NCBI GenBank assembly: GCA_030698645.1
Contig: JAUYMV010000203.1
Coordinates: forward strand, 1-7,478
Direction of reading: 5' to 3'
DNA length: 7,478 bases
DNA from: Mesorhizobium sp.
GTDB taxonomy: Bacteria > Pseudomonadota > Alphaproteobacteria > Rhizobiales > Rhizobiaceae
Shown here one piece after another: positions 2,228-7,478 of the stretch. The stretch's first letter is position 1; the number at the start of each line of letters is the position of its first letter. A program made the position numbers and the translations under genes. A model generated the notes under the pieces. It was not told the origin of the DNA. It saw nothing but the letters and a program-made list of their open reading frames with translations, and did no database searches.

Positions 2228-2264
2228 AAAAAAAGCCCGTCGCGGGAGGAGGTGCGACGGGCTT
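2228..2264 (-). terminator. Intrinsic terminator of the sRNA (its third hairpin)
   Basis: On the minus strand a perfect 10-bp stem, AAGCCCGTCG with CGACGGGCTT, encloses the 12-nt anti-Shine-Dalgarno loop and runs into seven T (2234-2228), two of which overlap the stem. On the plus strand no T tract follows 2264 (GAGTTGAAC), so it should work only in the minus direction and not end the phosphofructokinase transcript. Confidence 0.92.
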
Positions 2265-2325
2265 GAGTTGAACACGACGCGGGAGGAGGTGCGCCGTGTC
2301 GGCGTTGGCTTTCCGGGAGGAGGTG
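2243..2325. repeat. Three identical 12-mers CGGGAGGAGGTG (sRNA loop motif)
   Basis: The 12-mer occurs at 2243-2254, 2280-2291 and 2314-2325, with start-to-start distances of 37 and 34 bases. Flanking stems differ in sequence but keep pairing, so the loop is the conserved part. On the minus strand each copy reads CACCTCCTCCCG, which contains the anti-Shine-Dalgarno core. These are functional modules of the sRNA, not a mobile repeat. Confidence 0.95.
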
Positions 2326-2341
2326 GATCACCAACGTCCCC

Positions 2342-2370
2342 AAGATATGCCGTGCCTATTGATTCGGCAA
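2342..2370 (-). promoter_or_regulatory. Sigma70-like promoter of the sRNA
   Basis: On the minus strand TTGCCG (2370-2365; 4 of 6 to TTGACA) and TATCTT (2347-2342; 4 of 6 to TATAAT) are separated by exactly 17 bases. Normal spacing to the start site places it near 2335-2338, at the foot of the first sRNA hairpin. The good agreement between promoter and RNA fold supports both calls. Confidence 0.68.
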
Positions 2371-2580
2371 CCGGAGATTATGCATGGCAGATGTGCAGAT
2401 AGTCCCGAATTACGCTTCGTAAGGCGCTTGGCCGCCAATTCGTCTCCGACGCGCGAACGCGGCAACTTGGTCGGGATCGCACGAGCTTAGGCGGCTGCCG
2501 GAGCGCCTCAGCCATCGACAGCGCGTCATGAAGCCGCCATTCTCCGGCGCGACGTTCCATCGGGCAGGTCGGGGAGGGGC
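2371..2580. other. Intergenic region between divergent sRNA and caspase gene
   Basis: No coding region is supported here. The stretch must hold the upstream control region of the sRNA and the promoter and leader of the caspase gene. A small inverted repeat, TTACG-CTT-CGTAA (2410-2422), stands out in a slightly AT-richer patch (2371-2422). GGGGAGGGG (2571-2579) is the purine-rich ribosome binding site just before the ATG at 2581, with unusually short spacing. I found no convincing -35/-10 pair for the caspase gene. Confidence 0.5.
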
Positions 2581-6541: not shown

Positions 6542-7478
6542 ATGACAAATGTCGCCCTGACAGGGCTTGCGCGCGATCTCGCCCGGCGTGCCGACGAAGG
6601 CCGCCCGGTGCGTATCGGTGTCATCGGCTCGGGCGAGATGGGCACCGACCTCGTCACCCAGTGCATGTTGATGAAGGGCGTCACGCTTTCGGCCATCGCC
6701 ACCCGCCGGCCGCATACCGCCCGCCATGCGATCGAGATCGCCTATGGCGACGACGCGCACGCGCGCGAGGCCGATACGCCGTCGAAAGTGTCCGCCGCCA
6801 TCGAAGCCGGCAGGATCGCCATCACCTCGGTCGAGACCATGGTCACCAACCCGTTGCTCGACGTCATCGTCGACGCCACCGGCAAGCCCGGTGTTGCCGC
6901 CGACTACGACCTGATGGCCATGCAGCACGGCAAGCATTTGGTGATGATGAATGTCGAGGCCGACGTCACCATCGGCCCCTGGCTCAAGCGCCAGGCCGAA
7001 AAGCTCGGCGTCGTCTATTCGCTCGGCGCCGGCGACGAGCCGTCGTCTTGCATGGAACTGATCGAGTTCGCCTCCGCGCTCGGCTATACGGTCGTCTCCG
7101 CCGGCAAGGGCAAGAACAATCCGCTCAACCACGACGCCATTCCCGACGACTACCGGGAGGAGGCGATCCGCCGTAACATGAACCCGCGCATGCTGGTCGA
7201 GTTCGTCGACGGCTCCAAGACGATGGTCGAGATGTGCGCCATCGCCAACGCCACCGGCCTGGTCCCCGACCGGCCCGGCATGCACGGACCGAATGCCGAC
7301 CGGGACACGCTGGCCAAGGTGCTGATCCCGCGCGAGGACGGCGGTGTGCTGTCGAAAAAGGGCGTCGTCGATTTCACCGTCGGCAAGGGCGTCGCGCCCG
7401 GCGTCTTCGTCATCGTCGAAGCGACCCACCCGCGCATCATCGAGCGCATGGACGATCTGCATGTCGGCACCGGGCCCT
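6542..7478 (+). CDS. Homoserine-dehydrogenase-like NAD(P)-dependent oxidoreductase (SAF-domain family), 3'-truncated
   Basis: The first 312 residues of a cytoplasmic dehydrogenase-like enzyme run off the window end. After a short helical lead (RDLARRADEGRPVRIGVIG) comes a Rossmann dinucleotide motif G-S-G-E-M-G at 29-34. It continues with ATRRPHTARHAIEIAYG, VDATGKPGVAADYDLMAMQ, GDEPSSCMELIEFA, SAGKGKNNPLNHDA, FVDGSKTMVEMCAIANATG and LVPDRPGMHGP. These match, as I recall them, the homoserine-dehydrogenase-like proteins of proteobacteria that end in a SAF domain and are usually about 430-450 residues. That end is missing here. They are often placed with sugar-acid or polyol catabolism genes, but the substrate is not settled for this one, and the missing downstream neighbours would be the best clue. 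The ATG at 6542 is preferred over ATG 6536 and GTG 6524 by family start and by the weak GGGATGGA (6528-6535); the ribosome binding site is poor, so the start is uncertain by a few codons. Confidence 0.82.
   Translation, partial: MTNVALTGLARDLARRADEGRPVRIGVIGSGEMGTDLVTQCMLMKGVTLSAIATRRPHTARHAIEIAYGDDAHAREADTPSKVSAAIEAGRIAITSVETMVTNPLLDVIVDATGKPGVAADYDLMAMQHGKHLVMMNVEADVTIGPWLKRQAEKLGVVYSLGAGDEPSSCMELIEFASALGYTVVSAGKGKNNPLNHDAIPDDYREEAIRRNMNPRMLVEFVDGSKTMVEMCAIANATGLVPDRPGMHGPNADRDTLAKVLIPREDGGVLSKKGVVDFTVGKGVAPGVFVIVEATHPRIIERMDDLHVGTGP

Follow-up and report, generated by a model that had tools for sequence, protein, structure and literature searches.

The question raised by the locus described here is whether the spacer between a phosphofructokinase (PFK) gene and a caspase-domain gene of Mesorhizobium sp. 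encodes a small RNA (sRNA), and how such an RNA would act. The stretch of DNA analysed, referred to below as the window, comprises positions 1 to 7,478 of contig JAUYMV010000203.1 (assembly GCA_030698645.1), which is contig C763 of genome G000 in our numbering. Judging by sequence and predicted fold, the locus is very probably an αr14 (NfeR1-type) sRNA gene on the minus strand, the RNA of which is predicted to act in trans via its loops.

Hairpins, loops and family of the locus

The minus strand of the locus is predicted to fold as RNA into three hairpins, whose stems differ from one another and each close an identical 10-nt loop, ACCUCCUCCC (Table 1). The 12-mer CACCTCCTCCCG occurs exactly three times on this strand, at 2314-2325, 2280-2291 and 2243-2254. 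As 0.0013 exact copies, both strands counted, are expected under a first-order model of the window, chance does not account for three within 83 nt. With up to two mismatches allowed, five matches were observed in the window against 1.06 expected, a number reached in 2 of 200 shuffles. The original prediction had described unrelated stems carrying the same 12-nt loop; the different stems and the shared sequence were borne out by the exact 12-mer and the fold, but the loop itself is 10 nt in length and is closed by the pair that the terminal C and G of the 12-mer form.

Folding of the minus strand gave -53.2 kcal/mol (z -5.85; shuffled mean -33.9), and none of 200 shuffles was as stable. A stable fold of a different shape is predicted for the plus strand as well (-55.0 kcal/mol, z -3.22, none of 200 shuffles as stable); the energy therefore does not decide between the strands, and the choice rests on the T run, the promoter and the match to the family. 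Hairpin 3 is directly followed by TTTTTTT at 2234-2228 (seven U in the RNA) and makes a predicted intrinsic terminator, as had been proposed for the last stem. A generic terminator scan reported none, hairpin 3 included; the loop of hairpin 3 is 10 nt and the scan accepted loops of up to 8 nt.

The covariance-model search suggested with the original prediction gave a match of 78.7 bits to Rfam ar14 (RF02344), against a curated cut-off of 58.8, over model positions 1-123 of 123, which confirmed the assignment to the αr14/NfeR1 family. Three further Rfam models matched the locus below their cut-offs: CcsR1 (RF02791; 31.6 bits, cut-off 65.3, covering 2228-2306), Scr3202 (33.6 bits, cut-off 52) and anti-hemB (21.5 bits, cut-off 49.5). 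A whole-genome search found three ar14 copies over the cut-off, on contigs C320 (86.7 bits), C545 (81.1 bits) and C763 (the window copy), the next-best score being 21.4 bits; the expectation that members are multicopy thus held in this genome. Among 61 genomes, the own one included and at most 47 candidates scored in each, so that the counts are lower bounds, ar14 was over the cut-off in at least 37 and matched at E<=0.01 in at least 46. None of the candidates scored in 14 named control genomes was over the cut-off or matched at E<=0.01, and nine of these genomes matched weakly at E<=10. The at least 103 over-cut-off matches from 37 genomes carry the exact core CCTCCTCCC three times in 56 cases, twice in 38, once in 7 and not at all in 2. 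A distant search of plasmid records gave partial matches in 117, none of them spanning 80% of the query.

The locus is thus an ordinary further αr14 member, one of three in its genome. The loops, the free stems, the anti-Shine-Dalgarno reading and the number of copies were already published for αr14-type RNAs in 2011 (PMC3927594), and the family, the identical anti-Shine-Dalgarno loops and the silencing role are published for NfeR1 of S. meliloti (PMC3927594, PMC7143759), so the original prediction overstated how surprising the locus is. Like αr14/NfeR1 (Smr14C2, SmelC397; S. meliloti, RF02344), the window RNA has three hairpins, hypervariable stems, an anti-Shine-Dalgarno motif CCUCCUCCC in each loop, a predicted promoter with a spacing of 17 bp and several copies per genome; unlike it, the window RNA has a predicted length of about 109 nt (NfeR1, 123), an upstream box with a spacer of N10 instead of N6, and an ntrB target without sequence support in its genome. 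CcsR1-4 of Rhodobacter sphaeroides (RF02791) share the loop motif, but the CcsR1 score falls short here and the locus is not in a DUF1127 3' UTR, DUF1127 matches being found on C320, C572 and C691 and none on C763. AbcR1/2 (αr15) resemble the window RNA in their CU-rich anti-Shine-Dalgarno motifs and ABC-transporter targets (PMC7143759), but are a separate, Hfq-binding family with two such motifs and are absent from the Rfam matches of the window. The SmelA075 and SmelA099 families are likewise multicopy sRNAs with anti-Shine-Dalgarno loops and two to four hairpins (PMC3927594). No substantive difference from these families was seen, the window RNA representing the three-hairpin case. We take them to be the RNAs also called 'cuckoo' RNAs.

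Conservation of the loops and covariation of the stems

The window copy was aligned with six congeneric copies, with a single gap column and six distinct rows. On the window fold 94.9% of the cells are paired, a figure that is favoured by the use of the window row's own structure as reference. Nine stem pairs are changed on both sides and still paired, where shuffles give 1.7 (none of 500 reaches nine) and slid structures 0-1; each of the nine double changes occurs in one row only, so that few events are counted. Helix 1 is paired in 87.5% of its cells, its two outermost pairs forming in only 2 and 1 of the six rows, while helices 2 and 3 are paired in 100% and 98.5% of theirs, with four and three pairs changed on both sides, respectively. 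The loop core CCTCCTCCC is invariant in all three loops across these close copies. A MAFFT alignment of 18 copies misplaces hairpin 1 in several rows and was left out of the counts.

Three recognisable loop anchors were present in 94 of the 103 family matches, and the other nine were dropped from the comparison of stem arms. The mean energies of the three stems were -14.1, -14.5 and -22.1 kcal/mol with own arms against -4.8, -4.6 and -12.3 kcal/mol with mixed arms; as these loop statistics select on TCC[TC]CCC, the conservation of those letters in them is by construction. Changed loops beside unpaired stems, the outcome named in advance as speaking against the gene, were not seen: the nine double changes and the far greater stability of own over mixed arms point the other way. 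At this locus the loop letters are held and the stem letters drift in pairs.

Predicted promoter, predicted action and alternative readings

The 17-bp promoter of the original prediction is present as a layout. In its support, TATCTT stands at the same place in all six congeneric copies, to which GCCATGCA upstream is also common, and a -35 TTG lies 17 bp upstream of it in five of the six. Further upstream is a box TGCA-N10-GCAT, whose shape resembles the LsrB site of the nfeR1 promoter, TGCA-N6-GCAT (PMC10746234). TGCA-N10-GCA was found in 14 of the 52 upstream regions that are not classed as lying behind a gene end or hairpin and in 3 of the 51 others (shuffled mean 0.25). The N6 form known from the literature occurred in 6 and 2 of these regions, respectively (shuffled 0.08), and is absent from this place in the window. 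The classes of the 103 matches used for these counts (23 behind DUF1127, 4 phasin-like, 24 behind another anti-Shine-Dalgarno hairpin and 52 neither) are rough, three phasin-linked matches standing under 'none' and some promoters being hidden under 'behind another hairpin'.

Table 1. Predicted features of the sRNA locus and its flanking genes in the window
Feature	Position	Strand	Basis or remark
ar14-family sRNA gene	2228..2342	minus	End-to-end Rfam match
Predicted transcript, about 109 nt	~2336 to 2228	minus	Start inferred from -10 box, end at T run
Hairpin 1, loop at 2315-2324	2301..2339	minus	Fold; stem with internal mismatches
Hairpin 2, loop at 2281-2290	2271..2300	minus	Fold
Hairpin 3, loop at 2244-2253, with T run 2234-2228 (predicted intrinsic terminator)	2228..2264	minus	Fold
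Predicted sigma-70-like promoter (TTGCCG 2370-2365, 17 bp, TATCTT 2347-2342)	2342..2370	minus	-10 in six, -35 TTG in five of six congeneric copies
Upstream box TGCA-N10-GCAT	2380..2397	minus	Resembles LsrB site of nfeR1 promoter; assignment uncertain
PFK (PF00365)	976-2142	convergent with sRNA	Pfam match
Caspase-domain protein (PF00656), 1290 aa	2581-6453	plus	Pfam match; TPR match below cut-off
DRL-type oxidoreductase		plus	Other side of sRNA from PFK, with caspase gene

A transcript of about 109 nt would start at the TTGCCG/TATCTT promoter and end in the T run, perhaps under a stress or nitrogen signal acting through the upstream box. Any of the three identical CCUCCUCCC loops may then base-pair with Shine-Dalgarno regions in trans, which would likely block translation and speed the decay of the bound mRNAs. 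In S. meliloti, the three redundant anti-Shine-Dalgarno loops of NfeR1 silence mRNAs at translation start, and the silencing of ntrB::eGFP was abolished when all three were mutated (PMC10746234); the main predicted NfeR1 targets are transport proteins (PMC7143759). Carried over from this genetically tested relative, anti-Shine-Dalgarno silencing by the window RNA is likely. The sequestering of the ribosome binding sites of many mRNAs, which the original prediction ascribed to such loops, is therefore supported as the likely mechanism: it has been demonstrated for NfeR1 (PMC10746234), and for the window copy we infer it.

A candidate target would be the start of an ABC transporter ATPase (PF00005). 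The pattern GGGAGGAGG-N3-10-ATG occurs once in the assembly and its reversed pattern does not occur; the single site with all nine bases is the start of this ATPase, which we take from its sequence to be GlpS-like and whose gene is preceded by a frame that presumably encodes a glycerol-3-phosphate-dehydrogenase-like protein. The duplex of the loop with this start was -21.2 kcal/mol. A script located the start of the glpS-like orthologue in 8 of the 11 loci. At this start, genomes G002, G004 and G006 retain GGAGGAGG, and G001 and G005 have shortened forms of it (GGGGAGGA and GGGAGGAG); no match was found at the glpS-like start of G003. The target screen covered ATG starts. The wider pattern GGAGGAGG-N3-9-ATG occurs 20 times in the assembly against 4 times for the reversed pattern, an excess that Shine-Dalgarno sites by themselves would lead one to expect. 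Three of the 20 sites open frames of at least 240 codons, encoding an ABC ATPase (L207), a GGDEF protein (L219) and an epimerase (L229).

Several observations weigh against an expressed, mRNA-pairing αr14 RNA at this locus. TTGCCG/TATCTT fits the sigma-70 consensus at 8 of 12 positions only, for which reason a generic sigma-70 scan with a threshold of 9 reported no promoter; the copy of G001 has TGGCAC in place of the -35 TTG; and the spacing of the upstream box is N10 where the published form has N6. A strong Shine-Dalgarno sequence before glpS is expected for translation anyway, so that the site and its conservation are weak evidence of targeting. The ntrB-like start, GAGGCGG, pairs at -10.4 kcal/mol, a value reached by about a fifth of 91 control starts; these came partly from loci chosen for holding GGAGGAGG and are biased to strong pairing. 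This ntrB-like frame was named from its sequence and its place before an ntrC-like frame, with no TIGR01818 match over the cut-off, and its start codon is inferred. In S. meliloti, furthermore, only one of six copies was detected by Northern blot (PMC7143759). PMC5596092, in the part available, mentions NfeR1 and holds no expression evidence for a relative of the window gene.

Because of the S. meliloti result, the window copy could be a silent or decaying extra one, the working copies being those on C320 or C545. This would agree with the absence from the window of the genes that flank the congeneric relatives, with homology ending at about 2225 and 2347-2350, and with the outermost pairs of helix 1 that most relatives lack. 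Yet the loop sequence is perfect in each hairpin, the promoter layout and the T run are intact, and pairs in all three helices have changed on both sides with the pairing kept rather than decayed; we consider a silent copy unlikely.

An improbable alternative is that the main task of the CCUCCUCCC loops is the titration of an RNA-binding protein and not pairing with mRNAs. Selection by a protein ligand would likewise give a fixed loop on free stems, and the C320 copy directly behind a DUF1127 gene repeats the ccaF1-CcsR arrangement of Rhodobacter, where the DUF1127 protein CcaF1 takes part in CcsR maturation (PMC8625941). However, the loop sequence complements strong Shine-Dalgarno sites, the three-loop mutant of NfeR1 loses ntrB::eGFP silencing (PMC10746234), and the three DUF1127 matches of this genome all lie on contigs other than that of the window.

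That there is no RNA gene here, and that the end of the PFK gene carries only repeats resembling terminators or some repetitive DNA element, is disfavoured and has hardly any probability left. In favour of this reading are the terminator-like hairpin 3 shortly downstream of PFK, the empty generic promoter scan and the stable fold of the plus strand. Against it, the T run of hairpin 3 lies on the minus strand, opposite to the direction of PFK, the stems are not repeats of one another, and a full-length family match comes together with stem covariation.

Genomic neighbourhood and other copies of the family

The flanking genes named in the original prediction, a PPi-phosphofructokinase and a caspase gene, were recovered as PFK and a caspase-domain protein, but their placement is not conserved. 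PFK and the caspase-DRL pair lie on one contig at a distance of 62.3 kb in G002, 60.7 kb in G006 and 60.4 kb in G004, and on this ground a conserved PFK-caspase-DRL placement was rejected; the junction in the window is a lineage rearrangement or deletion, or an assembly join. The neighbourhood thus gives no hint of function. The congeneric relatives of the window copy (six genomes) sit upstream of an AMP-binding synthetase; a search for that gene at E 1e-50, run without a positive control, gave no match in the own genome, which is 93% complete. The homology to these relatives spans only the sRNA and the -10 box.

A conserved PFK neighbourhood was also rejected, on a survey of 80 named PFK loci that represent the best 80 of 474 relatives, with flanks of up to 5 kb and several shorter; no locus carried at least two exact nine-letter motifs on the same strand within 70 nt. 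The PFK contigs G002:C51 and G006:C19 gave no ar14 match at E<=0.01. In G004, a phasin-linked anti-Shine-Dalgarno unit, an ar14 match below the cut-off (53.5 bits), lies just upstream (5') of PFK, behind a phasin-like frame.

Pairing of the loop was -16.2 kcal/mol with the caspase start and -10.7 kcal/mol with the PFK start (mean of the 91 control starts, -6.8). A functional link with either gene was rejected, this pairing being its sole support and the controls being biased. Each congeneric genome has 3 to 12 matches to the caspase-domain protein at E<=1e-20, some of which are pieces of one protein. A further GGGAGGAGG lies at 7155-7163 within the DRL reading frame, where 11 nt (7153-7163) are complementary to loop 1 and its flank, with one mismatch to the full 12-mer; this match is probably due to chance. 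It is improbable that convergent read-through RNA from PFK serves as a built-in sponge, in which three stretches of 12 nt would complement the sRNA loops perfectly. The generic scan (loop limit 8) reported no terminator between PFK and the sRNA. If such a sponge existed, the amount of free RNA of a global anti-Shine-Dalgarno regulator would depend on the transcription of a glycolytic gene, in this lineage only.

The second ar14 copy of the genome (G000:C320:16004-16126, L056) lies directly behind a DUF1127 gene (C320:16162-16269) and adjoins what we take to be a trmFO-like gene. By a rough pattern, 23 of the 103 family matches lie behind a DUF1127-like C-terminus; no joint mention of DUF1127 and ar14 was found in the literature searched. 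The third copy (G000:C545:3892-4011, L055) is situated between a serine acetyltransferase gene and a frame that is presumably alpha/beta-hydrolase-like. Its hairpin 1 sequence, GCCATCTACTCCTCCCAGATGCGATG, is identical in the copies of G003, G005, G021, G034 and G036, in contrast to the usual free stems.

Hairpins with anti-Shine-Dalgarno loops also follow the stop codon of a gene that we assume from its sequence to be phasin-like (L202:3083-3529, minus strand), and the same combination was seen at G005:C1:3504213, G003:C4:1710117, G021:C1:609538, G036:C5, G034:C1:47996, G013:C1 and G014:C76. Tandem arrays of at least four ar14-like units, some below the cut-off, were observed at G033:C45:28034-28528, G026:C23:266663-267184 and G029:C12:149477-150162.

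The locus adds a well-supported member to the αr14 family, one of three in its genome. Under one Rfam model, this single genome combines a stand-alone, NfeR1-like arrangement with one that is CcsR-like and linked to DUF1127, so that it can be asked whether the two serve the same targets under different signals.
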